The notes under the pieces were generated by a model. The model searched no databases and was not told the origin of the DNA. It worked only from the letters and a program-made list of their open reading frames with translations. A stretch of 51,810 bases of DNA, taken from positions 1-51,810 of the forward strand of contig JAGQVN010000065.1 in assembly GCA_020437905.1 (NCBI GenBank), written 5' to 3'. This document shows, piece by piece, positions 3,581 to 33,888 of this stretch. The first letter of the stretch is position 1. Every line of letters begins with the position of its first letter. This DNA is from Flavobacteriales bacterium (GTDB lineage Bacteria > Bacteroidota > Bacteroidia > Flavobacteriales_F > PHOS-HE28). The translations under genes were made by a program, and so were the position numbers.

Positions 3581-6500
3581 CGTTCTTCAAAGATAGCACC
3601 GGACGACCCCGCCCACAAGCCATCCACAGGCTGATCTGACGAACGGTCGTAGGGCAGGTCGATGGTCACTTTCGTACCTATGGAACGGCCATCCGGTCCG
3701 GCGACCTGCGCTGGCCCAACTATACGAATGTCGGCCACCTGAAGATTGCGTAACACATCTGCGCGGCCTTTGGTGATCTCGATTCCACGGGAGATATGGT
3801 CACCCTTGCTTCGCGGTCGTGCCATGCTGGTTTCCACACCAATGCCATCATCGGTGATCTCGACCCGCACATGTCCCTCGTCGGCAGTTGTGACCTTGAT
3901 GACAACGCGGCCCGACCCCTGCATGGGGAGGATGCCATGCCAAATGCTGTTCTCCACATATGGCTGTAGCATCATCGCCGGAAGTTGTACGCGATGTGGG
4001 TCCACATCTTCGGCGGTTATCAGCTCATATTCAAATCGGTCTTTGAACCGCATGTGCTCCAGGACCAGATATAGCTCAAGGCGCTCCATCTCCTCGGCAA
4101 GAGTGGTGGTATCACTTTGGCTTGCATCCAGGTTCTTGCGGATCAGTTTGGCAAAGCTTGTCAGGTACCGGTTGGCCATGGTCCGGTCCTGACTGTTGAT
4201 ATAGTACTGGATGCTGTTCAGTGCGTTGAACACGAAATGGCGGTTCATGTTCGCGTTCAGCGCTTGTTGTTCCAATTGCAGCATCCGCGAGCGCAGGACG
4301 AGCTGCCTCGTCTTTTCTCGTCGCTCGTTGCGCAACTTGCGATACCGAAGGAGTAGGAACAGTGTTGCGGACAACGTGGCAAGGAGCAAAGCGAAGAACC
4401 ATCCCTGCAGCCAGAAAGGAGGGGTGACCCGGAACGGAAGCTCGGCGACCGAGCTCCAGGGACCCTGTGCCCGTGCGGCCATGACCTGGAACACGTACTC
4501 ACCATGTGGCAGGTTGGAAAAGCTGGCGAAACGCGCATCCGTTGAAGGCAGCCAGTCCTCGTCCAGACCCTGCAGGCGATACCGGAAGCGTAATTCGTTG
4601 GGTTCCGCGAGGGCAACGGCGGTGTAGTCGAATGTCAGGTAATTGCGCAGGTGGCCGACCCTCGGTTGGATGGGAAGCCCATTGGAGGCTGAAAGACTGT
4701 CACAGTTCCCCGACCAATCCGTGGGTTCCAGAAAGGACCGGACGGCTGTGATGTACACGGTCGGCGCGGACAGCTGCGCGCGTGAAGGGCCGCGTGAAGG
4801 GTCGTGAAGCACGAGGCCCGCAGCAGTGCCGAAAAGACACCGCCCGACGGGGTCCACATGGGCCGCGTTCAGGTTGCATTCAAGGCTGCGCAGCCCATCG
4901 TTCAGGGTGATGTGAAGGGGCTTGTGATCAGGGACCAACAGGCTGTCCGGATCGGCATGGTAGAGGCCATTGTTCGTCCCTATCCAGAGCCACCCGTTCG
5001 GATCCGTGGTGATGAGGTCTATATAGTTCGAACCGAAATCCTTCCCAAGCCGCCTCACCGTCAGGGATCCTTTGCGGACACATGCCAGACCGTTCGAAGT
5101 GCCCACCCACATTCGACCCTTACCATCCTCAGTGAGGCAGAAGACGACCTTGGAAGGCATGCCTTCTGTCGGCCCGAAATGCTTGATCGCTCCGCGCTCT
5201 TCCACGGTCAGACCATTGTCATGACCCAGCCAGAGGCGGCCTTGTCCATCCCGCACAATGCTTCGAACCGAACGCAGTTCAACCCATCCCGCTACGTCCA
5301 GTCCGGATAAGGATCCGTCCGTTCCCACCCGCTGGACCCCTTCCCGGGTCCCGATGAGCAGGTCGCCGCTCTTTTCCTCCCAGATCGAAAGGACGCGTTC
5401 GTTCAGGTCCTCCACAGCCTCGGTCAGGGGCATCACCATCCCACCTCGGATCCGGCACAAGCCTTCACTGGTGCCGAACCAGAGATCTCCGGTCCGCGAA
5501 CGCAGTCCGCACCACACCGTGTTGTTGGGCAGTCCATCCAGGGTCGTCACCATGGCCATGCCATCCGTGCGACAGATGCCGTTGCCGTAAGTCCCGAGCC
5601 AAAGGTCCCCGCTATGGTCCGGTACGATGCACATGACCTGATCGCTGCACAGGCCGTCCTTCTGTGTAAAGGTGACGAAGCGATCACCGGTATAGCGGAT
5701 GGCACCAGCCCCATCCGTACCGAACCACATATTCCCTTCCCGGTCTTGATGGATGCACCAGATGTTGTCGTTCGGCAATCCCTGATGAACGGTGAATGAT
5801 CGGAAGCGCCCACGCTCCATGAGATTTACACCGAACTTGGTGCCTACCCACAGGCGCCCTTCTCGATCCGTGAGCAAGGCACGGATATTGTCCTGCAATA
5901 GGCCTTTGGTCTCGTCGAACTCCAGGAACGACCCGTCATCAAGGAGTTGGAAAAGCCCGTCACCGAACGTGCCGACCCAGATCGAACCTTTTGGTCCGTG
6001 CGCCAGGGCACTGATGCTTTTGCTCGCGGTATCCCCGACCTGGATGCTTTGCAGCTTGTTACCGGACCAACGCATCAAGCCGTTCCTGGTGCCCACCAGA
6101 AGGCCGCCGTCCGGCATGGAGAGCAACACCCGGGGTTGAAGGGATCCAAGCACGGCTCCCCCTTCGAGCGCGGAGGATCGCCCTTCCTTATAGCGGAATA
6201 CACCCTCCCCGTCCACGGCAATGAACAGGCTGCCGTCAGTCCTAAGAGCAAGGTCCATGATCCTTCCATGGTGGGCGGGACCCGGAAGTGCGACACGCTG
6301 CGGCGGCAGGCCGTTGTGGGAACGGACAAGACCGCCACCGGTTCCAAGCCAAACGGAGCCATCCGGACCGCAAAGCACGGCGGAGACCTGGGCATCTGGA
6401 AGCCCCTCCTGAAGCGCCAGGTTGGTGAACAATGTACCGTCGGTTCGGCTGGCCCCACCGAGGGTGCCGAACCACATGAACCCTTGCGCATCCTGGGCGA

Positions 6501-6621
6501 TGCAGCGCACCTGGCTTTGGGCCAGACCTTCCTCGGGCGTATACTGGATGAATCCGTACTGTTGGGCATGGGAACGACCCGCCACCAGGACAAGCAACGA
6601 GGTCAGCAGGCTCCGCAGCAC
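3577..6621 (-). CDS. LytS-type sensor histidine kinase with two-component propeller
   Basis: 1014 residues from a GTG at 6621, 14 bp after the regulator stop; this start gives a clean signal peptide ending SHAQQ. About eleven two-component propeller blades follow, each with a W-x-G-T-x-x-G core (GFMWFGT, GRLWVGT, GDLWLGT and others), then a Y_Y_Y domain, one membrane helix (about 738-760) and a His_kinase domain with phospho-acceptor His795 in NRHFVFNALNSIQ. The ATPase domain has ENSIWHG and DDGIG. The sensor part is periplasmic and probably reads a cell-surface or carbohydrate signal, as in related Bacteroidota kinases. It should phosphorylate one or both adjacent LytTR regulators. Confidence 0.92.
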   Translation of the reverse strand: MLRSLLTSLLVLVAGRSHAQQYGFIQYTPEEGLAQSQVRCIAQDAQGFMWFGTLGGASRTDGTLFTNLALQEGLPDAQVSAVLCGPDGSVWLGTGGGLVRSHNGLPPQRVALPGPAHHGRIMDLALRTDGSLFIAVDGEGVFRYKEGRSSALEGGAVLGSLQPRVLLSMPDGGLLVGTRNGLMRWSGNKLQSIQVGDTASKSISALAHGPKGSIWVGTFGDGLFQLLDDGSFLEFDETKGLLQDNIRALLTDREGRLWVGTKFGVNLMERGRFRSFTVHQGLPNDNIWCIHQDREGNMWFGTDGAGAIRYTGDRFVTFTQKDGLCSDQVMCIVPDHSGDLWLGTYGNGICRTDGMAMVTTLDGLPNNTVWCGLRSRTGDLWFGTSEGLCRIRGGMVMPLTEAVEDLNERVLSIWEEKSGDLLIGTREGVQRVGTDGSLSGLDVAGWVELRSVRSIVRDGQGRLWLGHDNGLTVEERGAIKHFGPTEGMPSKVVFCLTEDGKGRMWVGTSNGLACVRKGSLTVRRLGKDFGSNYIDLITTDPNGWLWIGTNNGLYHADPDSLLVPDHKPLHITLNDGLRSLECNLNAAHVDPVGRCLFGTAAGLVLHDPSRGPSRAQLSAPTVYITAVRSFLEPTDWSGNCDSLSASNGLPIQPRVGHLRNYLTFDYTAVALAEPNELRFRYRLQGLDEDWLPSTDARFASFSNLPHGEYVFQVMAARAQGPWSSVAELPFRVTPPFWLQGWFFALLLATLSATLFLLLRYRKLRNERREKTRQLVLRSRMLQLEQQALNANMNRHFVFNALNSIQYYINSQDRTMANRYLTSFAKLIRKNLDASQSDTTTLAEEMERLELYLVLEHMRFKDRFEYELITAEDVDPHRVQLPAMMLQPYVENSIWHGILPMQGSGRVVIKVTTADEGHVRVEITDDGIGVETSMARPRSKGDHISRGIEITKGRADVLRNLQVADIRIVGPAQVAGPDGRSIGTKVTIDLPYDRSSDQPVDGLWAGSSGAIFEER

Positions 6622-6635
6622 CTTGTTGGTCGGTA

Positions 6636-7394
6636 TCAGAAGGTCTGGATCAGGGCAAGGAACTCGGGCAGTTTCCTGCGGGAGACAGGTACCATGGCAC
6701 CATTGTCCAGGATGGCCATGTTCCCTTCCGAGCGGCTGAAGCTCTTGAGGTGTTCCAGGTTGATGATGAACGATTTGTGCACCCGGAAGAATCGGTCCTT
6801 GGCCAGGCTGTTCTCGAACACCCGGATATGCTTGCTGCTGAGGGCCCGCTTGCCGTCGCACGTATGCAAGGTGGTGTAACTGTCATTCGCCTCCAAATAG
6901 AGGATGTCCTCGTACTTGTACAACACGAGCCCGTCACGCCCGGGAACCGCGATACGGCCGGACAGCGCTGATCCGGGTTCCTGGAGGAGGCTCTCGATGG
7001 CCTCAGCGCGCCTGGCGCCATCGGTCGGGTCTGCGGCCATTCGGACGATCTTCCCGGCAGCGCGTTGCAATTCTTCAGCATCGATCGGCTTCTCAAGATA
7101 GTCCAGAGCGTTCTCCTTGAAGGCGCGCAACGCGAACTCGTCATAGGCGGTCGTGAACACCACGGCTAATTCCTGGTCCTGTATCGATCGCAGGAGGGAG
7201 AAGCCATCCTCTCCGGGCATTTTGATGTCCAGGAAGAGCGCTTGAGGGTTGAGCTCGGCGATCTTCTTTCGTGCCTCTGCGGCACTTCCAGCCTGGCCGA
7301 CCACTTCCAGGTCCGGACAGTGCTCTTCGACAAGGAGTTGCAGGTTCTGTCGGGCATCCGGTTCGTCATCCACGATCAATATGCGCGTCCTCAT
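6636..7394 (-). CDS. LytTR-family response regulator
   Basis: 252 residues. The receiver domain (about 1-120) has the acidic pair DDE (9-11), phospho-acceptor Asp56 in FLDIKMP, the TAYDEFA switch region and the KPID lysine. The C-terminal LytTR DNA-binding domain (about 150-250) has YLEANDSYTTLH and the FFRVHKSFIINL core. It lies 14 bp upstream of the kinase gene in the same operon, so it is the most likely cognate regulator. Its direct-repeat targets cannot be deduced from the window. Confidence 0.93.
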   Translation of the reverse strand: MRTRILIVDDEPDARQNLQLLVEEHCPDLEVVGQAGSAAEARKKIAELNPQALFLDIKMPGEDGFSLLRSIQDQELAVVFTTAYDEFALRAFKENALDYLEKPIDAEELQRAAGKIVRMAADPTDGARRAEAIESLLQEPGSALSGRIAVPGRDGLVLYKYEDILYLEANDSYTTLHTCDGKRALSSKHIRVFENSLAKDRFFRVHKSFIINLEHLKSFSRSEGNMAILDNGAMVPVSRRKLPEFLALIQTF

Positions 7395-16687: not shown

Positions 16688-19600
16688 TCAACGGAGCACC
16701 TGAACATGTCCCATCTGCTGATGCTCCATGCCCACTTTGCCCGTTTCGTCCTCGATGAACCGGTAACGCATCTTCCACACGTACATGTCGTTCGGGACAA
16801 GGTCCCCACCGACCCGGCCGTCCCACAGCACATCCAATGAGTTCGATGTGAACAGCACGCCGCCCCAGCGATCAAAAACGGTGAGCTCCATGGTGGCTAC
16901 GTTCTTCCCCACCGGCCCCCAATAGTCATTGATGCCATCGTTGTTCGGCGTGAACGTGTTGGGTACGTACAGCGTCGCAGGGCAGAACTCAGTGACCACG
17001 ACCGAATCGCGTAAAGCGCAGTCGTATTGGTTGGTGATGTTCACGAAATACCAGCCGTAGGCCCCGGCCAGGATCATCTGGGTCTGTGCGCCGGTGCTCC
17101 AGTCGAACTGGCTGCCATCGTTCCCGGCATTGATGACCACGTAATGGGGGTCTTCGTCCAGGCATACGAACTGCTCCCGGCTGATTATTCTGGCAGGTGC
17201 GGGGTTGAAGGTCGTCTGGACCTCGTCCGTACTGACGCAATATCCATTGCTGACCGATACCGAGTAGGTGCCGCCTTGCATGACATCGATCGAAGAGGCT
17301 GTGGCCCCCGTGCTCCAGGCATACGTATTCCCGGCTTGACCAGCGTTCAGTGTGAGGACATCCCCTTCGCAGAGCACGGTATCCGGTCCCAGGTCCACGA
17401 TCGGGAAAGGCACGAGTAGTACGGTGGCGTCGAAGGTCTCCGCACAGTTGGCCGGGCTCGTTACCAGGACCTCGTAGGTCCCGCTGCTGTCAGCCACAAT
17501 GGTCATGGTGTTCGCGCCGGTGTTCCACTGGTAGGCACTTCCGACATTCCCCGCATCGAGCACGACCGTCTGATCCACACACGCGGTCACATCCAACAGC
17601 AGGTCCGACGGTGCCGGTTCGATCGTGACGACGACCGAATCACGCACGGTACATGGACCATCCGTTACCTCTGCCCAATAGATGCCCGTGTTGGTGGGTG
17701 TGATCGAGGCACTGGTCGCTCCGGTGTTCCACAGGTGTGCGAGCCCAGGGTTCGCAGCGTTCAACTGGAACGATGCGTTCGAGCACACCGTCGTATCCGG
17801 ACCGAGATCCACTTGGGGTTCAGGGACAAGCACCACGATGGCATCGAAGGTGAGCGAGCAGTTCTGGATGTTGGTCACGGTCACCGAGTAGGTGCCGCTG
17901 CTCGATGCCACAATGGTCTGCGTGGTCTCATTGGTGTTCCACTGATAGGTCGAACCGGAATTCCCGGCGTCCAGCACAGGGAGGGTTGACTCGCAGGTGG
18001 TGATGTCCTGCAGGACATCCAGCGGATCGGGGAGCAGTTCCACCTGAACGACATCGCTGTTCACGCATCCTGCAGGACTGGTGGCGGTGGCACTGTACGT
18101 GCCGCTCTGGCTCACGGTGATGCTTGGTCCGATGGCCTGAGTGCTCCATAGCACCGTATTTCCGGGACTGTTCGCGTTCAATGTGGTGGAGGTAGCGCCG
18201 CAGATGGCCTGATCGGGTCCCAGGTCGACAACGGGAAGGGGGGCGAGGGTCACAAAGAATGTCTTGATCGTCTGACAACCTTGCGGATCGGTGATCTCAA
18301 CCGTGTACGTACCTGAGCTGTTCACGCTGACCTGCTGCGAGGTCGGGCCGTGGGACCAGAGGTAGCTGAAGCCGGGGAATCCAGCATCCAGTAAGACGCT
18401 TTCTCCCTGACAGGCGCTTTCAAATACCGGTGTAATGAGGTTGTCAAAGGCATCGGTCACTTGCACGCTGCCTGTGATGCTGCATCCGTTCACATCGGTC
18501 ACTGTAACAGTGAATAGCATGGTCGTGTCCGCCATGATCACCGGCGAAGCGACCGATCCGGAGTTCAACAGATTGGCAGGGCTCCATGCGATCGTGAACG
18601 GAGCGGGGAGGTTGTGCTGGACGTTCAATTGAAAGCCGAGCGTGTTGCAGAGCGTTGTATCGGGAGTGGTCTGCAACTGATAGCCCGTGGTCACTATGAC
18701 CTCCACGCTGTCGGTGATCGCACATCCGCTCTGCGTATCGGTCAGCGTGGCCAGGTAGTTCGTCGTTGCCAATGGGGTGGCAATGGGGGTGAGGCTCGTT
18801 GCGGAGCTGAGGGTGTTCGAGGGGCTCCAGACCAGAGTTGTCGGACCGTTGGCCTGTATCTGCGCCGAAAGGGTCGTGCTGTTCCCCTGACACAACATGG
18901 TCTGGGCTGCGGAAACGCTCAGCCCCATCAGTTGACCCACTGTGACCGTGATGTCATCCGTTGCCTCGCATCCGATATCGGACAGCACATGCACCGTGTA
19001 GGTGGTCGTGCTTTGCGGCGTGGCGACCGGATCGGGAACATCAGGTGCAGAAAGACTTCCGTTGTTCGGGCTCCAGGAGTAGGAGGCCACGTTGCCTGAG
19101 CTGGGAACCGCTTCCAAGGGGATCCCGGATACATCGCAGATGGTGGTGTCGGCTCCGACCGTGACGGAGAACGGAGGCTGCACTTCGATCCAGATGGAAT
19201 CGTTCGTGCTGCACCCGCTGGTACTGGAGGCCTCCACGAAGTACCAAGTACTGCTACCGGGTGCGGCAGAAGAGGTCGGCTGGCCGGGTTGGTTGACGGA
19301 AGCGGATGGGCTCCATGCGAAATTCACGGCGCTGTTGTCATAGTGCGTGATAACCACATTGTCCAGGGCCCAGACATCCTCTCCGACGCCACTGTGTGCC
19401 AGTTGTCGCCAGCGGAAGGACGTGGTGTTGGTCTGCGCCGCGATCGGGATATCCAGTGAAACGGAGGTAAAATTGGGATAGCCTGACTCGTCAAAATGTT
19501 CAAGCAAGGTCCATGTCGCGCCATTGGTGGAATACTCCAAGCGAACATCCTCACCGGGGTCTGCATCTTCGCAGGGCGCAATGCCATCCGCGATCTTGAG

Positions 19601-21670
19601 CAGGAAGTAAATACGTCCACCATTGGTCAGGTCCAGGTCAACGGTCCGGGCCCTGCGCTGCGCACCGCCATCAAAGAACAGGGCGTTCCCGGAGACGGAT
19701 CCACAGGTGGTCGAGGGAGCCCCAGCGTTCACACTGAGCCACATGGGAGACAGCCCTCCTTCGAACTGATCGAACACCAGGGCCTGTTCGGCATCTGCGA
19801 CCAAGGTGAGAGGGTCGCCCAGGCAAATGGCACTATCACTTGAACTGCTTCTTACGCCGAAGAGCAGATTGGGGTCCACTTCGACCAGTACACTGTCCAC
19901 CACGGTCCCACAACCCAATGGGCTGGTCACGTGAAGGCGGAACCAGGTATCGCTCATCGGATAAGCGATGGGATCCGGTATGGTCGGGTCGCTCAAGGTG
20001 CCTGGAGGACCCCAATTGACATCGAATACGGAAGTATCGGGGACGGGGGCGCTGCCCAACTGGACCTGGCCGAATTGACACACGGTCGATGAAAGGGATC
20101 CATTGGCCAGCGCTTGGATGCTTCCAGGAACCTCAAGCCCAATGTGGTAGACGAAGCGCCGTTCACATCCGCTCAAGGGCAGGGTCTCCACGGCAGCAAT
20201 GCTGGAATTGCCGGAAGGCGTGTAGGTATAGCTCGTTCCTGAGGAGAGGACCACTCCAGGCGCATCCAGGTCCTCCCAGTGCACGCTCGTGAAGTCGGGA
20301 GGTGCGTTCAGCGTTACCGGGCCGGATGCGCACAACGTTGAATCCAGGCTCGCATCGGGTGAATAGGTCCTGTTGCACACGCGCGCATAGCTTTCACCGG
20401 TGCCCAACCCATGCACATAGGCATGAAAGCCTTGTGGGGCATCGATCACATGCGATCCCGGGGACACTGCAACACTCGCATGGACATAGCTCGGGCATTG
20501 AGCATACGGGGTGAACTGTGCGGCAGGGACCGGGTTGCCATCCATTGTTAGCAGTCCGATCAGGGATGCCGGCGCGACGAGGTCGACCCGATGAACGGAT
20601 ATTTGAGGTGAAGCGTGCGTGGTGAAACGCACGTTGCGTGTTGTCTGACCATCCGGTTCAACGAGGAGCAGCGATGGATCACCACCTCCGGCGCAGTTGT
20701 AGCCTTCCATGACCTGAGCCACGGACACCGGGCTGTTCGCGGTGATACATACGGGCCCTGTCACCCCGTTCACCACATGGTCGTCCCCAGCGTTCAGTGG
20801 GATCGGGAACCCTCCATCGATCGAGATCGATGTATTGTTCTGTGCGGCTACGACCCGAATGGTGTGCGAGGTGGTACCGGAGAGATGTGCGGTATGAAAG
20901 TTCGTTCCCCATCGTTCGATGGGTCTCAGCTGCTCATAAATGTGGTCGCATGCGGGACAGCCCACGGGCACATTCGCGCACATGGAGCCGGAGAACACCG
21001 CGAATGGCCTGCACGGACCACTGTTGTCGGTTCCTTCCACCAGGGTCCCCGTTAGATCGGTGGAGGCGAGAGCGGACTGGACCTGATAGGATTCACCAGC
21101 GTTCAGGCTGACCAGGAATGGGACCCCGGCGGGTCTTCCTCCGGCCGTGTTCACGCTTGGTGTGATCCGAACCTCGGTCCCATCTTCGGTCGCCACGACC
21201 AGCAGCTCGCTCTTATAGAAATCATTGAACCCGGGAAGACCGCGATACGCCTGGGCGCGATAACTGGTACCCAGGGCGCTTTGGGGAAGTGCCTGGGTCA
21301 CATCATGGGTGAAGCTTTGATAGCTGGCCGCCGCAACCATGATCGGATCATTCGATTCGACCTTTATGCCAAGCGGTCGTATCACCTCGGACCCTTGGTT
21401 CTCGGCCAGCGCCGGCACCACGACCACGGTGCTCCCATTGGCCGGTATGGAGAACGACTGGCTCCACCCGGAGAGGGGGATGCTGACCGTTCCATTGGTC
21501 GCTACAGTAGCTTGGAGCGACAGTCTCAACTCTTGGGCTCCATACGCATTCTGCATGAATCCCAGCCAGAACAATTCGCCAGCAGTATTCCACGTCGCGC
21601 CTGATTGAGCATGCGTGGTCGTGGGGCAAAGCGCAAGGGTCGCGATCAGGATGCGCAATGCGTATCTCAT
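16688..21670 (-). CDS. giant T9SS-exported surface protein, copy 1
   Basis: 1660 residues from ATG 21670, chosen because it starts a signal peptide ending TTHAQS. In order: an IgGFc-binding-like head (about 25-440, with FWLGFMQNAYG and ESYARVCNRT); a reelin-like domain (about 635-785); Ig-like segments with TTTYTVHVLS-type strands; about seven short repeats with an (N/D)AGNxGSxYxWxT core; and a T9SS type B (CHU_C) tail over the last 90 residues, VPNTFTPNNDGINDYW to MGHVQVLR. It is expected on the cell surface after type IX secretion, perhaps as an adhesin. The next minus-strand gene upstream is a paralogue with its own terminator, so this copy probably has its own promoter. Confidence 0.9.
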   Translation of the reverse strand: MRYALRILIATLALCPTTTHAQSGATWNTAGELFWLGFMQNAYGAQELRLSLQATVATNGTVSIPLSGWSQSFSIPANGSTVVVVPALAENQGSEVIRPLGIKVESNDPIMVAAASYQSFTHDVTQALPQSALGTSYRAQAYRGLPGFNDFYKSELLVVATEDGTEVRITPSVNTAGGRPAGVPFLVSLNAGESYQVQSALASTDLTGTLVEGTDNSGPCRPFAVFSGSMCANVPVGCPACDHIYEQLRPIERWGTNFHTAHLSGTTSHTIRVVAAQNNTSISIDGGFPIPLNAGDDHVVNGVTGPVCITANSPVSVAQVMEGYNCAGGGDPSLLLVEPDGQTTRNVRFTTHASPQISVHRVDLVAPASLIGLLTMDGNPVPAAQFTPYAQCPSYVHASVAVSPGSHVIDAPQGFHAYVHGLGTGESYARVCNRTYSPDASLDSTLCASGPVTLNAPPDFTSVHWEDLDAPGVVLSSGTSYTYTPSGNSSIAAVETLPLSGCERRFVYHIGLEVPGSIQALANGSLSSTVCQFGQVQLGSAPVPDTSVFDVNWGPPGTLSDPTIPDPIAYPMSDTWFRLHVTSPLGCGTVVDSVLVEVDPNLLFGVRSSSSDSAICLGDPLTLVADAEQALVFDQFEGGLSPMWLSVNAGAPSTTCGSVSGNALFFDGGAQRRARTVDLDLTNGGRIYFLLKIADGIAPCEDADPGEDVRLEYSTNGATWTLLEHFDESGYPNFTSVSLDIPIAAQTNTTSFRWRQLAHSGVGEDVWALDNVVITHYDNSAVNFAWSPSASVNQPGQPTSSAAPGSSTWYFVEASSTSGCSTNDSIWIEVQPPFSVTVGADTTICDVSGIPLEAVPSSGNVASYSWSPNNGSLSAPDVPDPVATPQSTTTYTVHVLSDIGCEATDDITVTVGQLMGLSVSAAQTMLCQGNSTTLSAQIQANGPTTLVWSPSNTLSSATSLTPIATPLATTNYLATLTDTQSGCAITDSVEVIVTTGYQLQTTPDTTLCNTLGFQLNVQHNLPAPFTIAWSPANLLNSGSVASPVIMADTTMLFTVTVTDVNGCSITGSVQVTDAFDNLITPVFESACQGESVLLDAGFPGFSYLWSHGPTSQQVSVNSSGTYTVEITDPQGCQTIKTFFVTLAPLPVVDLGPDQAICGATSTTLNANSPGNTVLWSTQAIGPSITVSQSGTYSATATSPAGCVNSDVVQVELLPDPLDVLQDITTCESTLPVLDAGNSGSTYQWNTNETTQTIVASSSGTYSVTVTNIQNCSLTFDAIVVLVPEPQVDLGPDTTVCSNASFQLNAANPGLAHLWNTGATSASITPTNTGIYWAEVTDGPCTVRDSVVVTIEPAPSDLLLDVTACVDQTVVLDAGNVGSAYQWNTGANTMTIVADSSGTYEVLVTSPANCAETFDATVLLVPFPIVDLGPDTVLCEGDVLTLNAGQAGNTYAWSTGATASSIDVMQGGTYSVSVSNGYCVSTDEVQTTFNPAPARIISREQFVCLDEDPHYVVINAGNDGSQFDWSTGAQTQMILAGAYGWYFVNITNQYDCALRDSVVVTEFCPATLYVPNTFTPNNDGINDYWGPVGKNVATMELTVFDRWGGVLFTSNSLDVLWDGRVGGDLVPNDMYVWKMRYRFIEDETGKVGMEHQQMGHVQVLR
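19330..19785 (-). other. reelin-like domain in surface protein copy 1
   Basis: This coding segment holds CGSVSGNALFFDG, a VDLDL strand, GEDVRLEYSTNGATW, a FRWRQ strand and GEDVWALDNVVI. That order (CGS-x-x-GxALxF, ..LxYSxNGxxW, FRWxQ, GxDxWxxDxxxI) is the signature of the jelly-roll subrepeats of animal reelin as I remember them. A matching segment sits at the same place in the tandem paralogue. Confidence 0.6.
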
Positions 21671-21763
21671 TCTGGTAGGTCGTCTTGCGTTATTGCCAGC
21701 CAGCAGCAGCAATGGTTCGCGCCGTACATACGAGCCGCACGGCCAAAAGTTGCCGGTAAAAGA

Positions 21764-21796
21764 CCAAAAAAAGGGCCAACCTTCCGGCTGGCCCTT
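21764..21796 (-). terminator. terminator of surface protein copy 2
   Basis: AAGGGCCA (21771-21778) and TGGCCCTT (21789-21796) form an 8-bp stem, with two further C-G pairs inside a mismatch and a 4-nt loop. Read on the minus strand, a run of T residues follows directly. It begins 22 bp past the stop of copy 2 and separates the two paralogous genes. Confidence 0.8.
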
Positions 21797-21818
21797 CTTC
21801 ACATTACTAACAGCGGAT

Positions 21819-24800
21819 CTAACGAAGGAGGGTCACATGCCCCATCTGCTCCTGTTCAGCACCGAGGGTGCCGTTCTCATCCTCGACAAAGCGATACTTG
21901 ATCTTCCAAACGTATACACCGTCTCGAACAGGACTACCGTTCATCTTTCCATCCCAGAAGCTCTTGTCGTCCTTGCCTGTGTAGATCAATGTCCCCCAGC
22001 GGTCGAAGATGTTCAGCTCCATGGTGCCGATATTGTTCCCAAGGGGATAGAACAGGTCATTGACCCCGTCGCCATCAGGGGTGAAGGTATTCGGCACGAA
22101 ACAGGTTGGCGGGCAGTATTCGATCACCTCGATGCTATCCGTGATCGTGCAGTTCAGTGGGGTGGTGATCTCCACCACATACCAGTCATACGTATCCGCA
22201 TCAATGGTCTGTGTGGTCTCATCGGTGCTCCACATGAACGTGCATCCCGGATTTCCGGCATCCAGCAAGATCTTGTTCGGGGGTACATCCAGGCACACTA
22301 CCACCTTGTCCTCCAGGATCGGGATCGGAAGAGGGTTGAAGACCAAGGTGATGGAATCGCGCGTAGTGCAATACCCATTGAACACGTCCACCCACACGAT
22401 GGCATCATCCGTAGCGTAATTGGTCTGTGTCGTTACCCCATCGCTCCACAGGAAGGACTCACCCGGATTGTCGGCATCCAACCACATGGTATCCGTATCA
22501 CAGAGCGCTTCGTCAGGTCCGAGGTCGACGACCGGGAACGGGCTGAATGTCAGGACCGCATCCGCGGAGTCCACGCAGAAAGTCGGGGTGGTGACCACAA
22601 CGGAATAGACACCCGAAACACTATCCACCTGGATCGTCTGCGTGGTCTCGTTGGTGCTCCAGAGGTACCAACTTCCTGGATTGCCGGCGTTCAGGTCCAC
22701 GGTCTCGGAGATACAAACCATGGTGTCGCTCAACTGGATGACCGGCAAGGGGTCGAAGACCACCAGGATCGAGTCGCGGTTGGTGCAATCATTCTGGTCC
22801 ATTACTTCCACCCAATAAGTGTCGTCCGTGCTCACCGTGATCGTTTGTGTGGTCTCGGTGGTATTCCAGAGGTACTGGGAACCTGGATTGCCGGCATCCA
22901 TGGTCCAGGCCTCGCCGATGCACAGCGAAGTATCGGGCCCAAGGACGATCACGGGCAGCGGATCGACGGTCACTTGTGTGGTGAAGGTGGTCTGGCATCC
23001 GCTCGTATCGGTGATCACCACGGTGTAGTCCGCGGCCGTGGTCACTGTGATCGTTTGGGTGGTCTCATTGTTCGGGGTCCAGGCATAAGTGCTGCCGGGA
23101 TAGCCCGCATCGATGACCATGGTGTCACCCGCGCAAAGGGACGAGTCCGAGATGAAGGTCAGGTCATCGAAGGGGACCGTGATATTGACCGTATCCCTTG
23201 CAGAGCACCCCAAGGGGTCCTGAACGACCACGATGTATTGTGCAGAAGAATCGAAGGTGATCGTCGGGGTGGCCGTATTGGCACCGATCAAATACGGAGC
23301 AGGCGTCCAGGAATAGACCGGGTTGGGCACATTGTGTTGCACATCCAGTTGGAATCCAACGGGGTCACAGAGCGTCGTATCATTGGTCCCGGTGACCAAA
23401 TAGGCGGTGCTCACGTTGATGAGAATGTTCTCGACCAGGATGCATCCACTTACCGTATCGGTGACCGTCAACTGATAGTCGGTCGTTACTACCGGCGTAG
23501 CTAACGGGTCCTGGATGGTCGCATCGTTCAACGATGCGGCCGGGGTCCATGAATAGACCAAATTGGTCGTACTGCCATTGATGCTCGCATCCAGCGTCGT
23601 GCTTTCTCCCTGGCAGAGGTCATCGTCCAACGTGCTGATGGTGAGGCCCAAAGCCCCGGAAACGGTCACGGTCACACTGTCGGTCTCCACGCATCCAAAG
23701 CCGGTGGTCACGGTCACATAGTAGGTGGTCGTTACGGCCGGGGTCGCCACCGGGTCCTGAACGAAATCTGCGCTCAACGTGGCCCCAGGCGTCCAGGACC
23801 AGGTATGGTTGGCGCCTCCATTGGGAATGGCATCCAACTGGATGCCGGCAATGTCGCAGATCGATGTATCAGGGGTCACGTCGATGCTGAAGGGTTGACC
23901 TACATCAATGAAAACCGAGTCCTGATAACTGCACTGCGTCTGGTTATCCACCGAGGTCACGTAATACCAGCCCGAAACGGTCGGGTAGGACATGGGGTCA
24001 GCAATGTTGGCCGCGCTCAGTGTGGCCGCGGGGGACCAGTTGAACGTCAACCCTGTGAGATCCTGGACGCCAATCGACACATTGTCGAGGCTCCAGTTGT
24101 CGTTCCCTGGGCCTCCGCTGGCGAGCTGTCTCCAACGGAACAGCGTGTTCGCGGTCTGAGCCCCCACTGGTATCGGTACGGTCACGGTGGTGAAGTTGGG
24201 ATAGAGGAATTCCCAATAGGTGGCGATCACCGTCCATGCCCCCCCTCCATTGGTGGAGTATTCCAAGACCACATCCTCGCCGGGGTCGGCATCATCACAG
24301 GGTGGAGCACCTGCCCCGATCTTAATGGCGAATCGGATCGAGCCCCCGGCGGAAACATCCAAGCCGATCGTTTCCGCCTGTCTGGGGTTCGGCCCGTCGA
24401 AATACAGGGCATCGCCGAACACGCTTCCGCAAGCATTCCCGATCACCCCCCCCTGCACACTGTTCCACATGACCCCCAATGCGGTCTCGAAGGTGTCCGT
24501 GGCGATGATCTGGTGAACGTCCAGGTCCAGTTGCGAGGAATCGCCCAAACAGAGGACATCGACCTCGGTCAAGGCATCATAGACCAGCACATCGCCGGGG
24601 ATGACATTGATGAACAGGCTGTCGAACGCTACCGCACAACCGTTCAAGGTGCTCACGCTCACGAAGAACCACCCCGATTGGGTGGGCGTGGCGATCGGGT
24701 TGGCAATGGACCCATCGTTCAACTGGGGATCCGGCCACCAATTGTACAGATAGGTGCCAGGTGGCTGAACATCCACGTCCAACTGAACGGTCTCGTTCGA

Positions 24801-26420
24801 GCAGATCGTGATGGATGCAGGGGCCGGCACTCCGTTCGCTGTTGGGCTCAGGATGGGAGGGGTGTCCACCTCCACACTGAAGAAATATTGTTCCTCGCAC
24901 TGGCTCAAGTTCTCATATCCGGTGACCACATAAATGTCGCTACCCGTCGGTGTGAATGTGTAGCTCAGACCAAAGTGTAGCGTGTCCGTCGGGTCGCTCA
25001 CGGTGGTCCAGAAGGGGTCGAAAATGGGATTGGCCGGCGCCAGCGTAAGCGTTCCTGTGCTATCCACACCACAGAACACCGAGTCGATGTTCAAGGGAGG
25101 TACCGGTGTAAAGGAACCGACGGAGTACGCATAGCTCTCTGCGCTACCCATGCCGTAGACATAGGCGCTCAATCCACCGGGGCAGGTCAGCGTGTGGCTT
25201 CCTGCCGTGAGCGGCACCGTGGCATATGATTGCGTAGCGCAGGTTGGGAAGGCCGTGAACGAACCGGCTGGAACGAGCGCGCCGTCCAAGGACACCTGGT
25301 TCACATTGGAAGTCTCGGTCACAATGTTCAGGAAGTGGGCGGTGATCACCGTGGAAGCGACCGTGGCGAAAGTGATGTTGTCGATCTGCTGGTTCTCCGC
25401 GTTCAGGATCAGGAGTGCGGGGTCACCTGCTCCGCCACAGTTGATCCCTTGCATGAACTGAGCGACGCTGAACGGTTTGTTCCCTTCGAAGCAAGCCGCC
25501 GGTGCGAAATTGTTCACCTCCACGAATTGCCCGGCGTTCAGGATGATAGGAGCACCGCCGTTCACCGTGACCTGGGTGTTGTTCTGGTCGGCAAGAATGC
25601 GATAGGTATGCCCGGTCGTGGTGGAGAAGGGCACAGAATAATACTTCGTACCCCACACGTTCCGCGGCAGATTCTGTTCGACCACGTGGTCGCACGCTGT
25701 ACAGCCATTGGGAATATTCGTGCAAAGCGATCCGGAATGGACAGCAAAAGGCCTGCAACTACCGCTGGCTGCCGTCCCGATGATCGTGGACCCGGTAAAG
25801 TCCCCGGTCGTATTGCTCGCCTTGACCTGATACGTCTGTCCGGAATCCAATTGCACGGTCCAAGGGACCCCGGCCAGGTGCCCACCTTCCGTATCGCTTG
25901 TGGTGGTGATCTCCAGTTCCGTGTCGTCCTGGGTCGCTATGATCAGGAACTCCGAGACCAGGCCCGAGACCCCTGAGAGACCTGGATAGGCATGGATCCG
26001 GTACTCGGTACCCAGGGATTGGGTCGGATAGATGGTGGTGCCATCGGCTGTGTACGACTCGAAGTTGATCGCGAAGACCGCCACCGTATCACTGGCCTCA
26101 ACCAACACGGATAGGTCCTCGATGACCTCGGAGGTGTAGTGCATGGCCTGTGCAGGGGTCAACGTGACAGTGGTCGTCACGTTCGGCACCACGTTGAAGG
26201 GAATGCTCACCCCCGTCAAGGGCATGGTTACCGTGCCCGTGGCTGCCGTGTAGGAAGTGATGAAGATATCCAGGCGCTGATTGGCGTTCCCTTGGTAATT
26301 CTCCATGAACCCCAACCAGAATTCCTTGCCCATCGTGGGCACTACGCCTTGCCCGGCCACCTGGGTGGATACGATCAAGGAACAAGCAAAACCTCGAAGG
26401 ATCTTACTCCACATGGTCAT
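21819..26420 (-). CDS. giant T9SS-exported surface protein, copy 2
   Basis: 1533 residues from ATG 26420 (a second ATG is at 26414), with a signal peptide ending QVAGQ. Architecture follows copy 1: IgGFc-binding-like head (EFWLGFMENYQG to GSAESYAYSVG, about 30-445), reelin-like domain (about 640-790), four Ig-like segments with TTTYYVTV-type strands, about five repeats of the form DAGNPGSxYLWxTxETTQTI, then a T9SS type B tail (FVPNTFTPDGDGVNDLF to MGHVTLLR). The two proteins are clearly related but diverged along their length and differ in repeat number. It is likely a surface adhesin or matrix protein; its ligand is unknown. Confidence 0.9.
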   Translation of the reverse strand: MTMWSKILRGFACSLIVSTQVAGQGVVPTMGKEFWLGFMENYQGNANQRLDIFITSYTAATGTVTMPLTGVSIPFNVVPNVTTTVTLTPAQAMHYTSEVIEDLSVLVEASDTVAVFAINFESYTADGTTIYPTQSLGTEYRIHAYPGLSGVSGLVSEFLIIATQDDTELEITTTSDTEGGHLAGVPWTVQLDSGQTYQVKASNTTGDFTGSTIIGTAASGSCRPFAVHSGSLCTNIPNGCTACDHVVEQNLPRNVWGTKYYSVPFSTTTGHTYRILADQNNTQVTVNGGAPIILNAGQFVEVNNFAPAACFEGNKPFSVAQFMQGINCGGAGDPALLILNAENQQIDNITFATVASTVITAHFLNIVTETSNVNQVSLDGALVPAGSFTAFPTCATQSYATVPLTAGSHTLTCPGGLSAYVYGMGSAESYAYSVGSFTPVPPLNIDSVFCGVDSTGTLTLAPANPIFDPFWTTVSDPTDTLHFGLSYTFTPTGSDIYVVTGYENLSQCEEQYFFSVEVDTPPILSPTANGVPAPASITICSNETVQLDVDVQPPGTYLYNWWPDPQLNDGSIANPIATPTQSGWFFVSVSTLNGCAVAFDSLFINVIPGDVLVYDALTEVDVLCLGDSSQLDLDVHQIIATDTFETALGVMWNSVQGGVIGNACGSVFGDALYFDGPNPRQAETIGLDVSAGGSIRFAIKIGAGAPPCDDADPGEDVVLEYSTNGGGAWTVIATYWEFLYPNFTTVTVPIPVGAQTANTLFRWRQLASGGPGNDNWSLDNVSIGVQDLTGLTFNWSPAATLSAANIADPMSYPTVSGWYYVTSVDNQTQCSYQDSVFIDVGQPFSIDVTPDTSICDIAGIQLDAIPNGGANHTWSWTPGATLSADFVQDPVATPAVTTTYYVTVTTGFGCVETDSVTVTVSGALGLTISTLDDDLCQGESTTLDASINGSTTNLVYSWTPAASLNDATIQDPLATPVVTTDYQLTVTDTVSGCILVENILINVSTAYLVTGTNDTTLCDPVGFQLDVQHNVPNPVYSWTPAPYLIGANTATPTITFDSSAQYIVVVQDPLGCSARDTVNITVPFDDLTFISDSSLCAGDTMVIDAGYPGSTYAWTPNNETTQTITVTTAADYTVVITDTSGCQTTFTTQVTVDPLPVIVLGPDTSLCIGEAWTMDAGNPGSQYLWNTTETTQTITVSTDDTYWVEVMDQNDCTNRDSILVVFDPLPVIQLSDTMVCISETVDLNAGNPGSWYLWSTNETTQTIQVDSVSGVYSVVVTTPTFCVDSADAVLTFSPFPVVDLGPDEALCDTDTMWLDADNPGESFLWSDGVTTQTNYATDDAIVWVDVFNGYCTTRDSITLVFNPLPIPILEDKVVVCLDVPPNKILLDAGNPGCTFMWSTDETTQTIDADTYDWYVVEITTPLNCTITDSIEVIEYCPPTCFVPNTFTPDGDGVNDLFYPLGNNIGTMELNIFDRWGTLIYTGKDDKSFWDGKMNGSPVRDGVYVWKIKYRFVEDENGTLGAEQEQMGHVTLLR
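24060..24510 (-). other. reelin-like domain in surface protein copy 2
   Basis: The segment encodes CGSVFGDALYFDG, GLDVSAGGSIRFAIKIG, GEDVVLEYSTNGGGAW, LFRWRQLASGG and GNDNWSLDNVSIG. It is the counterpart of the domain in copy 1 and has the same reelin subrepeat signature, including the CGS start and the FRWRQ strand. Confidence 0.6.
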
Positions 26421-30384: not shown

Positions 30385-33300
30385 TTAGAAGAAGGCCCGG
30401 ACCTGTGCCCCCCCGACATGGATCACAGGCACATCTCTGGATGACCGTCCGTTATAGGTCAGGTCGATCTGCAGGTTGTTGCTCAGTTTGCGCTGGATCG
30501 CCACGCTCCAGGTCAGATTGGAGCCCACCTTCAGTCCCGACAGCATTTCGTTGCCCAACGAGCTGTTCTGCTCGCCATCATAGGCGATGGTGACCCAATT
30601 CCCGTTCACTTGCAGGCTCCCCTTTCCTGCAGTGCTCCAACGTACCTCGAAGCCCAGGTCCTGGATGTTGGCGGCTTCCCCGCCGAACTCCTCCCGGTTC
30701 CGCTTGTCCGTATACCGGAAGGAAATGGCTCCTCGAAGGTTGGTGTTCGGGCGCCAGGTCACCCGCGGCCTTACACCGCTTTGGTCGATCCAGAATGTCC
30801 GACCCTCGATCAGGTCGGAGTTGTTGGATACCCGGCCGATCTCCGCTTCCACATCCGCTGTCCATTGATCGGTCGTGTTCCATCGGATCCGGAATTGATC
30901 GAATTCGCGGACCCGGGCTTCAAAACCGTTCAACAGCAGGGTCTTGGTACGGTCGTTCAGGTAGGTATGGTCCACGGTCCAGGTCCTGCTGGACCGGTCA
31001 TAGTACAAGGTGTTCCTGACCGATGAAAGGAACGAGGTAAGCAAGGTGTCGGTGGGGTCGGGATCGAAGGGGTCCAAGGCGACCAGAAGGTCATCTGTCC
31101 GGGTGCGCCGGTCGCTGCGGTATGAAGCCATGTCGGAAAATCGTCCGATGAAGCCTCTAAAGCCTTTTGCAGTGCCCCATTTTGCCGCTGGACGGAGGTC
31201 GAACGCGGCGCTGAACTGGTTGTTGTATGCACGGACGAAATCATTGGTCTGAACGTTGACGCGCAGGTAGTTCGCTTCGTATCCGAAGTTGGCCAGCTCG
31301 AATTCGTTCAATTCCTTGATCCCGTTGTTGTTGTAGTCGATCCAGACATAGACCCCCTGGCCCGCCGGCACCTCGACATAGACGAACGCCCTTCGCTGTT
31401 CCAATCCGCTCCCGAACTCATAGAACAGGTCCCAGATCATGAGCCCCTTGCCCAGGTTCAGGTCGTGGTCCAAGCGCAGCAGGTAGGTGTCCTCCGGCCT
31501 TTGAGTGGTCAATGTGCTATCCTCGATCCGCAACTGCCTGTACGTCAAACTGGTTGAAAAACGGTTGTTCGGGTTCCGCCCAAGATCGAGCCCTGCTGTA
31601 TAGGCGGTCGCTGTGGTGCTGCGGACCAATTCTCCGGACTTCAGGGCATCGTCGTAACGCTGTCCTGCAGAAAGGCGGAACTTGTTGCGAAAGGTGTCAG
31701 GGCTTTGCACGAACACCTCCCAATCGAAGAATTGATAGCTGCCCACCTCCAGTTGGTCCGTGGTGTCAGCACGTCTGCGGTTCAGTTCGTGCTCGTCCTG
31801 GATGCCCACGGTGATCCACGGCATGTGACGCGCGATGCGGAATTTGTTGCGGACGAAGTCCGTCCTTATGGGCTCCCGGGTACTGAGAAAACTGGCCTTG
31901 CCGATGATCTCGTTCGCACCGGGGCGCAGGTCGCTGACCAGCTCCTGACGCCATCCCGAGTAGCGATCACGGACCTGGAACGTGTTCGAGGAATACGCGA
32001 TCGAGCCGCTCCTGGCTGAACGAAGTCCAACGGAGGCCCCAGCCAGCAGTTGATCGCCATCAAGTGGAACGGTCAGTGCGTTCCAATCCCGTTCGAACTC
32101 CACCGCCCGGTATCGTTCCACGGGTCTGAACGTGCTCGTAAGTCCCTCGCCCATCAAGCCTACCACAAGTTCCAGGGTCGTGTCTTTTCCACCCAGGGGG
32201 AAGGCCTTTTCAAGGTCCAGGAACGCTGCCACTCCCTCGTCGTTCCCGTCGTCCAGGGGGCTGAACGTGTTCCGGTCAAGCCTGGAGTACGCCAATTCGG
32301 TGGAAGTACGGAGCCCGTTGTCATTCCGATGATCATGCCCCAGGGTGACGACCTGCTGCACCCGTGGGGTCACCAATGGTCGTACGGGAGCGTATTCTCC
32401 CCTGCGTACGATCAGCCCGCTCACGGTGTCGGGTGCCACCCATCGGAACACGCGACCGTTCGGTGTGAACTCCTGCTGCACATAATCACCGTTCCCTATG
32501 CCCACATTGCTGAATGAGACCCTGAAGCGGGCCAATTCCGGGTCCGCGCTGAACACATAGACCGGCGTATAGCCCAAACTGTCCAGCTGTCGGTACAACA
32601 CTTCGTTCTCGTCAAAGGCCACACTGTCCACTCCCGGGACCACTGCGGCCAGAGGATCATCCCCCGCATCGAACAGGACCTGTCGTTCGGCATCGGTCAG
32701 GCTTTGCTGAAGGGGTTGGTTCTTGTGGTCCTGTTCGGAGAAGACGCTCAGGCGGAACTGCTCCTTACCCAGGTCGAACGTATCATCCAGGCGGACCATG
32801 GAGCGGGAATAGTTCCGCTCGCTGTATTGGAATTCGACAATGATCCTTCGGTCCTTGGTGATCAGGCGTTTCGCCGTAAAGGAGATCTCTGCGGTGTTGT
32901 AGTCGATCACATAGTCGAACTCCTGTCCGCGCAGGAGCAACTGGCCATCGATGAACACGCGTTCGGTGCCGGAGAGTACGATGATGAAACTTTCGCCCTG
33001 ATCGCCGCGCAAGCGATAGGGTCCTTGGACCCCTTCCACACCCTGGATCAGGTTGCGCGCGAATTTGCCTTTGGACAACGCTGCGGTGGCCCCGACCTCG
33101 TTGCGCGCCCGATCGTTCAACCGCGATCGTTGCGTGAAGGACAGGCCCTGATTCTTCTTCAAGTAGGTCAGAAAATGGCTCTTGGGGCGTTGCAGGACGA
33201 GGTCGCCCGCGATGAGCTCCCAATTCTCATCGAACAATTTGATGAACACTTGGTCGAAGTCCTGAAGTTCAGCTGTATTTCCGTCCGCCTGCACCGGGAT

Positions 33301-33888
33301 GTTGTTGTCCGTGATCGAGGCAAGCACGTTCACCCGGTCGGTGATCTTCCCGCTCAGCTCGAGGTTCAGGGTGCTATTGACGGACAGGTCCTGGTTGTTA
33401 CCAAAGAGTACACCACGACTGATACTGCCCGTCTTGTTCAACCCGGAACTGCTGAACAGGTCTTCGCGTCGATCCGAAGCAACGTATTTGAAGGGATCGG
33501 GCTTCGAACCGGCAGGCGCCAGCAAGCGGTCGCGCTCCTTGTGCGCAAAGCGTTTGGTGAACAACAGAGGGAGCACGCGATAGCGCGCCACCAGTGTATC
33601 GGTCGGCAGAGGCCCGTTCCAGGTGATCTCGCCTTTCAGGTCGCTCAGCGTATAGCGCTCTGCCGGCACCGCCTGGCCGTTCCGGGCCAGGGTCAATGAG
33701 CCCGGTGCGATGCTCAGCGTATCCAAAAGGAACACGGCAGAGTCCAGGAAGACCCGCTTTGTGCGCAGATTGCCCAGCTCCTGGGCTTGGACCACAGGGG
33801 CGAGAACGACCCACGTCAGAGCCAGGCAGCACAGGACCTGCCGTAGCGGTGCAGGGCCGAAAGGGAACACGGGAAAGCAAGTACGCAC
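30385..33888 (-). CDS. large outer-membrane beta-barrel protein
   Basis: 1167 residues with a signal peptide ending VVQAQE. After a short N-terminal domain (about 35-120) comes a conserved block, GNNQDLSVNSTLNLELSGKI then TDNNIPVQADGN and ELQDFDQVFIKL (about 160-220), then a long run of alternating hydrophobic strands rich in Arg, Tyr and Asp. The chain ends in Phe-Phe, the usual C-terminal signal of barrel proteins inserted by BAM. I know this type only as a Bacteroidota-specific outer-membrane protein; the function is not known to me. No TonB plug or T9SS tail is visible. Confidence 0.82.
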   Translation of the reverse strand: MRTCFPVFPFGPAPLRQVLCCLALTWVVLAPVVQAQELGNLRTKRVFLDSAVFLLDTLSIAPGSLTLARNGQAVPAERYTLSDLKGEITWNGPLPTDTLVARYRVLPLLFTKRFAHKERDRLLAPAGSKPDPFKYVASDRREDLFSSSGLNKTGSISRGVLFGNNQDLSVNSTLNLELSGKITDRVNVLASITDNNIPVQADGNTAELQDFDQVFIKLFDENWELIAGDLVLQRPKSHFLTYLKKNQGLSFTQRSRLNDRARNEVGATAALSKGKFARNLIQGVEGVQGPYRLRGDQGESFIIVLSGTERVFIDGQLLLRGQEFDYVIDYNTAEISFTAKRLITKDRRIIVEFQYSERNYSRSMVRLDDTFDLGKEQFRLSVFSEQDHKNQPLQQSLTDAERQVLFDAGDDPLAAVVPGVDSVAFDENEVLYRQLDSLGYTPVYVFSADPELARFRVSFSNVGIGNGDYVQQEFTPNGRVFRWVAPDTVSGLIVRRGEYAPVRPLVTPRVQQVVTLGHDHRNDNGLRTSTELAYSRLDRNTFSPLDDGNDEGVAAFLDLEKAFPLGGKDTTLELVVGLMGEGLTSTFRPVERYRAVEFERDWNALTVPLDGDQLLAGASVGLRSARSGSIAYSSNTFQVRDRYSGWRQELVSDLRPGANEIIGKASFLSTREPIRTDFVRNKFRIARHMPWITVGIQDEHELNRRRADTTDQLEVGSYQFFDWEVFVQSPDTFRNKFRLSAGQRYDDALKSGELVRSTTATAYTAGLDLGRNPNNRFSTSLTYRQLRIEDSTLTTQRPEDTYLLRLDHDLNLGKGLMIWDLFYEFGSGLEQRRAFVYVEVPAGQGVYVWIDYNNNGIKELNEFELANFGYEANYLRVNVQTNDFVRAYNNQFSAAFDLRPAAKWGTAKGFRGFIGRFSDMASYRSDRRTRTDDLLVALDPFDPDPTDTLLTSFLSSVRNTLYYDRSSRTWTVDHTYLNDRTKTLLLNGFEARVREFDQFRIRWNTTDQWTADVEAEIGRVSNNSDLIEGRTFWIDQSGVRPRVTWRPNTNLRGAISFRYTDKRNREEFGGEAANIQDLGFEVRWSTAGKGSLQVNGNWVTIAYDGEQNSSLGNEMLSGLKVGSNLTWSVAIQRKLSNNLQIDLTYNGRSSRDVPVIHVGGAQVRAFF

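Follow-up and report, generated by a model that had tools for sequence, protein, structure and literature searches.

Reelin B subrepeats (Pfam family PF21471; mouse repeats 3, 5-6 and 8, PDB entries 2DDU, 2E26 and 7LYU) belong to a protein whose subrepeats share a fold like that of carbohydrate-binding modules (CBMs) and pack into a stiff rod (PMC4882317). Here we describe a domain of the same fold and family, 31-46% identical to single reelin B subrepeats, in two giant proteins encoded side by side in an uncultured Flavobacteriales bacterium (assembly GCA_020437905.1, contig JAGQVN010000065.1, positions 1 to 51,810; this whole stretch of 51,810 nucleotides is called the window below). The window domain and reelin B have in common the CG-C cysteine pair, the Asp-box strand (with strict spacing in protein 2 only), the FRWxQ strand and the W-x-x-D(N/D)V end. 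Unlike in reelin, each window copy is single, lacks an A subrepeat, an EGF module, a Reeler domain and the receptor-binding lysines, and is set in an immunoglobulin (Ig)-like domain.

That setting recalls the split-domain RTX adhesins (AhLap of Aeromonas hydrophila, FrhA of Vibrio cholerae, and MpIBP), long repetitive proteins in which a separate module likewise interrupts an Ig-like domain. The ligand-binding domains of RTX adhesins are recognised by their emergence from Ig-like split domains and are held off the stalk, and one A. hydrophila head binds fucosylated glycans with micromolar affinity (PMC12077191; PMC10865825). The window proteins differ in using the type IX secretion system (T9SS) and a type B C-terminal domain, not the type I secretion system and RTX repeats, and in that the inserted module has the reelin B fold and not that of PA14, PBD, a lectin-like CBM or vWFA. 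Their overall architecture is that of the Bacteroidota T9SS type B proteins with IgGFc_binding (PF17517), Ig_7/PKD arrays and CHU_C, from which the nested reelin-like domain sets them apart. The Cleaved_Adhesin domains of Porphyromonas gingivalis gingipains are likewise Ca2+-binding jelly-rolls exported by the T9SS of a Bacteroidota, and their fold is related to that of reelin (PMC4882317), but the window proteins have no such Pfam match.

Sequence and fold of the reelin-type domain

The two proteins and their reelin-like domains, with domain boundaries set by the profile, are located as follows.

19337..19777, minus strand: Reelin_subrepeat-B-like domain of protein 1, P0001 residues 676-822 (PF21471 E=1.1e-28)
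24060..24503, minus strand: Reelin_subrepeat-B-like domain of protein 2, P0002 residues 640-787 (PF21471 E=1.2e-28)
16688..21670, minus strand: protein 1 (P0001), 1660 amino acids from the likely ATG at 21670, with a signal peptide (MRYALRILIATLALCPTTTHAQ)
21819..26420, minus strand: protein 2 (P0002), 1533 amino acids, with an N-terminal signal peptide

Numbered from the ATG at 21670, the domain of protein 1 spans residues 632-778. An earlier note, made from the DNA letters, had put reelin-like motifs at about residues 635-790 of both proteins, and both the proteins and the motifs were found where it had placed them. Each domain scored 99.9 bits with PF21471 (Reelin_subrepeat-B), for which the curated cut-off is 27 bits. 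The same model applied to mouse reelin gave 132-156 bits for three B subrepeats and 82-124 bits for two A subrepeats, so the scores of the window copies fall between those of the two A subrepeats. Both proteins carry CGSV-x-G-x-AL-x-F-DG, LEYSTNG-x-W, FRWRQ and a terminal LDNV-x-I. The motif order that had been read earlier thus held for the CGS start, LEYSTNG, FRWRQ and LDNV; strict Asp-box spacing (S/T-x-D/N-x-G-x-x-W) was found only in protein 2, protein 1 being one residue shorter at this point (STNGATW).

Searches of the PDB with phmmer (E 1e-50 and 2e-36) returned mouse reelin chains as the only significant matches, and a profile hmmsearch matched reelin at E 9e-74, with the best non-reelin match at E 0.26. 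The highest pairwise identity, up to 46%, was that between protein 1 and reelin 6B. Profile scores within reelin were 70-105 bits for the B subrepeats (repeats 3, 5, 6 and 8 and the last domain of 6a48) and 20-50 bits for A-type stretches. The bacterial copies do not have the insertion of ~15-20 residues that makes up the long A-type loop of 5A, 6A and 8A. A single PF21471 stretch and no EGF Pfam match were found in each protein, which leaves no A subrepeat or EGF module, and Pfam gave no Reeler match in either, the N terminus being occupied by IgGFc_binding instead. The Pfam score, the PDB relatives, the fold match described next and the identity establish the domain as a true homologue of reelin, specifically of its B subrepeat. 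The reelin subrepeat of the earlier note is therefore to be read as one B-type copy and not as a complete reelin repeat (A-EGF-B).

The AlphaFold model of the protein 2 domain (alignment of 15 sequences) had a pLDDT of 92.3 and a pTM of 0.89. Foldseek comparison of this model with the PDB gave eight best matches that were all reelin (TMq 0.86-0.92, rmsd 1.5-2.2). Among the non-reelin matches listed, CBM29 came next, followed by others that included CBM22, CBM16 and MAM, with TM <=0.65 throughout and TMq of at most about 0.55 for the MAM entries. A Pfam scan at E<=1 detected no Cleaved_Adhesin, MAM or CBM match over the segment. We rejected a chance or generic beta-sandwich likeness, given that the PDB sequence searches and Foldseek point to reelin, and likewise rejected MAM, CBM and cleaved adhesin as the family of the domain on the Pfam and TM values just given. 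PF21471, the PDB searches, AlphaFold and Foldseek thus confirmed the suspected presence of a reelin-type jelly-roll in a surface protein that a bacterium exports, and no unrelated sandwich came out as the best structural match.

Conservation was examined over 94 prokaryotic and phage copies. The cysteine pair (CG... to ...C) is complete in 92 of them, including both window proteins, and both cysteines are missing in the other two; because they are present or absent jointly, we infer that C25 and C69 form a disulfide that zips the domain. The Trp of the Asp-box is kept in 87/94 copies. An RXR motif lies at the core of reelin subrepeats (PMC4814460); its second Arg corresponds to the R of FRW here, which is Arg in 73/94 copies and Gln or Lys in the rest. 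The acids D73, E76 and D135 (P0002 domain numbering) are invariant or near-invariant in the prokaryotic copies (D135 in 94/94) but mostly not kept in reelin, and they may form an extra metal or ligand site. Two further acidic residues, D3 and D140, are conserved and are candidates for a structural Ca2+ site on the convex face; by analogy with reelin, the bacterial domain probably binds a structural Ca2+. Reelin binds ApoER2/VLDLR via two lysines of subrepeat 6A, K2360 and K2467 (PMC4814460). In both window proteins the residues aligned to these lysines, which were recognised by being 107 positions apart, are G37 and G133. The lipoprotein-receptor-like ligand that had been considered earlier gains no support from this comparison, since both lysines are replaced by glycine and are in any event features of an A-type subrepeat.

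Nesting inside an Ig-like domain

By the tests given below, the sequences on either side of the reelin-like domain are the two parts of one split host domain.

19778..19855, minus strand: upstream part of the split Ig-like host domain, protein 1 (joined-flank profile test; Ig_7 match)
19169..19336, minus strand: C-terminal part (strand C onward) of the split Ig-like domain, protein 1 (flank comparison and joined-flank tests)
24504..24593, minus strand: N-terminal part of the split Ig-like host domain, protein 2 (joined-flank test; composite AlphaFold model)
23886..24059, minus strand: C-terminal part of the split Ig-like host domain, protein 2 (joined-flank test; composite AlphaFold model)

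In relatives, the preceding flank corresponds to the beginning of an Ig/PKD-like domain (C-x-G ... L), and the following flank supplies the remainder (W-S/T-P ... C ... D-S-V-x-I-x-V). For several single domains, Pfam searches with the joined flanks gave weak matches or none; we therefore used a lineage-specific Ig profile made with 97 intact Ig domains taken from the same proteins, with shuffled upstream flanks as the control. Joined flanks matched this profile over nearly its full length in 79/93 copies. The upstream flank added a median of 10.4 bits, compared with 0.2 bits for the shuffled flank, and the gain was at least 5 bits in 65/93 copies versus 2.6% of shuffled flanks. Pfam Ig_7 also matched the joined flanks of protein 1, with 8-84 of its 84 model positions covered, at a score (E=7e-5) that falls short of the curated cut-off. 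A composite AlphaFold model of the split Ig domain of protein 2 with its insert (pLDDT 90.4, pTM 0.85) showed an Ig strand (residues 20-33) continuing into the jelly-roll and the chain returning at 167-187. As judged from the flanks and the predicted model, the reelin-like domain is nested in an Ig-like domain, between its strands B and C.

Most relatives carry one copy at one fixed place. At loci L103, L119, L121 and L130 the flanks resemble another beta-sandwich, and the joined flanks of L119 and L130, the two that were tested, match HYDIN/BACON-type Ig models. The same head has thus been placed in more than one kind of host domain, a pattern that suggests repeated insertion of a mobile head.

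Occurrence, descent and gene context

The window's genome contains two full copies, plus three matches that are partial and weak. All 45 sampled genomes of the genus match at E<=0.001, with only weak matches in two (G029 and G040), and 65/98 sampled relatives score above the Pfam cut-off; the domain is therefore not the unusual feature that it had been taken for. An even draw over the phylum gave 20/395 genomes above the cut-off, and other families carry the domain too. Scanning the genomes of ~85,000 species with two motif patterns, which were derived from the window's own relatives and bias the scan to near kin, yielded 68 loci, all titled Bacteroidota and mostly Flavobacteriales metagenome-assembled genomes; several of the metagenome-assembled carriers are named for activated sludge and similar sources.

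Outside Bacteroidota, tblastn detected the domain on a Methyloprofundus plasmid, in cyanophage gp7-type baseplate proteins and in a 635-kb phage genome. No relatives were found in viral-contig scans with a second alignment (A2) or the Methyloprofundus protein, although tblastn on annotated phages did find some. Plasmid pINp10 (AP023241.1; L132:7902-8555), from Bathymodiolus gill tissue, encodes a 217-amino-acid protein composed of a signal peptide, a reelin B-like domain (PF21471 E=8.9e-23) without either cysteine and a weak PEP-CTERM tail, with type I secretion genes ~4.5 kb off. The Synechococcus phage copies (L133:6001-6276 and L135:5001-5270; PF21471 E about 1e-12) lie within giant gp7-type baseplate proteins, and the cysteine pair is absent from the S-RIM8 copy. 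The 635-kb uncultured phage record LR745206.1 (L134:about 5800-6741) encodes a Bacteroidota-style signal-peptide protein with apparently the same nested reelin-in-Ig layout and 55% identity to a Bacteroidota copy; phage capture or mis-assembly are possible origins. Five further loci (L113, L115, L118, L123 and L128) have a ~1110-residue architecture with two N-terminal reelin-like domains ~80 residues apart, the first from a divergent subfamily, and inspection of the linkers by eye revealed no EGF module between the paired domains.

About nine genomes of the genus have the tandem pair as adjacent genes, and in a tree each window copy groups with different relatives. The recurring tandem and the separate clustering indicate a duplication older than these species. 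In trees of 45-48 prokaryotic and phage copies and 8-10 mouse reelin subrepeats, one branch split the two groups; its support was 96/98, and 89/96 in the set that included the phage and plasmid copies (48 against 8 mouse subrepeats). The animal side consists of mouse reelin from PDB chains only. Within reelin, A and B subrepeats each form one side of a branch. No recent transfer from an animal is seen in this split on one branch, and an ancient transfer in either direction is compatible with the tree.

In its longest form, the open reading frame of protein 1 (16688-21802, minus strand) opens with a GTG at 21802 that borders a terminator-like hairpin; translation probably begins at the ATG at 21670, ahead of the signal peptide.

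21767..21800, minus strand: terminator-like hairpin with a 15-pair stem and a T run, intergenic, just past the protein 2 stop (a sequence pattern only)

The region has as many terminator-like sites as expected from shuffled sequence, and this hairpin has the longest stem. With the hairpin between them, the tandem genes may be transcribed separately. Elsewhere in the window, a minus-strand open reading frame at 30385-33888 (1167 amino acids) has no Pfam or NCBIfam match.

Proposed function and alternatives

Both proteins proceed from an IgGFc_binding domain through PKD/Ig-like repeats to a type B sorting domain, and the T9SS translocon gene sprA is present in the window's genome (SprA_N, 521 bits).

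20408..21298, minus strand: IgGFc_binding (PF17517), protein 1 residues 169-465 (E=5e-62)
25152..26045, minus strand: IgGFc_binding (PF17517), protein 2 residues 126-423 (E=3.8e-65)
16751..16966, minus strand: T9SS type B sorting domain of protein 1 (CHU_C E=2.8e-12; TIGR04131 E=2e-14)
21882..22100, minus strand: T9SS type B sorting domain of protein 2 (CHU_C E=2.9e-15; TIGR04131 E=2e-13)

The T9SS would export each protein, which carries a type B sorting domain and would be attached at the cell surface. After the IgGFc-binding-type N-terminal domain, the PKD/Ig-like array would form the stalk, one Ig-like domain of which is opened between strands B and C by the reelin B-type jelly-roll. Held by its one conserved disulfide, and probably also by a structural Ca2+ as in reelin, the jelly-roll would project sideways from the stalk. 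Because the split-domain layout is the same as that of the RTX adhesins, whose inserted domains serve this role, we propose the reelin-like module as a ligand-binding head. We consider it fairly probable that both proteins are T9SS-exported surface adhesins in which the reelin B homologue that splits an Ig-like stalk domain acts as a disulfide-pinned head of this kind. Glycan binding by a reelin-type domain is possible, and a surface glycan is the more likely ligand than a protein receptor.

Several observations weigh against this proposal. Our searches found no binding data for any bacterial reelin-like domain, and PKD/Ig-stalk proteins of Bacteroidota can be structural. About 14/93 copies have another type of host domain, are not nested or were left undecided by the joined-flank test. 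The cyanophage copy sits in a baseplate protein and the Methyloprofundus copy is not nested, so the fold does not need nesting.

The domain could instead be a structural brace that stiffens or protects the long Ig/PKD stalk and has no ligand of its own. The conserved core motifs are mostly structural (the Cys pair, Asp-box, FRWxQ and W-x-x-D), and the packing of reelin subrepeats into a stiff rod (PMC4882317) provides a precedent. A brace would, however, be expected in many stalk domains, whereas most proteins have one copy at a fixed place, and domains inserted in split Ig domains bind ligands where tested (PMC12077191; PMC10865825); we regard a brace as unlikely. That the domain is an ordinary carbohydrate-binding jelly-roll of the CBM, MAM or cleaved-adhesin type, reelin-like in looks only, would fit the CBM-like fold of reelin itself (PMC4882317) and the appearance of CBM29, CBM22, CBM16 and MAM among the next fold matches. 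The gap in TM between these and reelin, together with the lack of any CBM, MAM or Cleaved_Adhesin Pfam match, makes this highly improbable.

Two other explanations start from the strength of the likeness to reelin. Mimicry of animal reelin, by which the domain would engage LDLR-family receptors or other animal proteins, could draw on the strong homology and on the relative from Bathymodiolus gill tissue, but glycines stand in place of the ApoER2/VLDLR-binding lysines of 6A (PMC4814460), the domain is B-type, and the carriers identified among bacteria are metagenome-assembled genomes, several of them from activated sludge and similar sources by name. We think mimicry very unlikely. A recent horizontal transfer from an animal, bringing reelin repeats into this genome, is equally hard to credit: it could explain the identity of up to 46% to reelin 6B, but all examined genomes of the genus, and many other families too, carry at least a weak match, the bacterial and phage copies lie across a single branch from the mouse subrepeats in both sets, and neither EGF nor an A subrepeat came along.

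A reelin-type domain in bacteria is not new, being already a Pfam family and common in this lineage. In the open-access literature, with subscription literature outside the search, we found no paper describing bacterial reelin domains or their nesting in Ig domains. What is new here is this nesting, which would make the window proteins a T9SS counterpart of the split-domain adhesins, with a reelin B head. The split-domain rule for ligand-binding heads would then extend from RTX adhesins to T9SS proteins, and nesting would offer a direct way to pick candidate heads among uncharacterised Bacteroidota giants. A more speculative idea, which we put forward with considerable doubt, is that T9SS split-domain adhesins with a reelin B head are widespread in Bacteroidota and that a prokaryotic adhesin module of this kind is the ancestor of the animal reelin repeat, the B-type first and the A-type later. 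The single-domain bacterial versions may serve as models of the reelin B fold that are simple and can be expressed, and a module mostly treated as a component of an animal neural protein is here an old and common surface part of environmental Bacteroidota.

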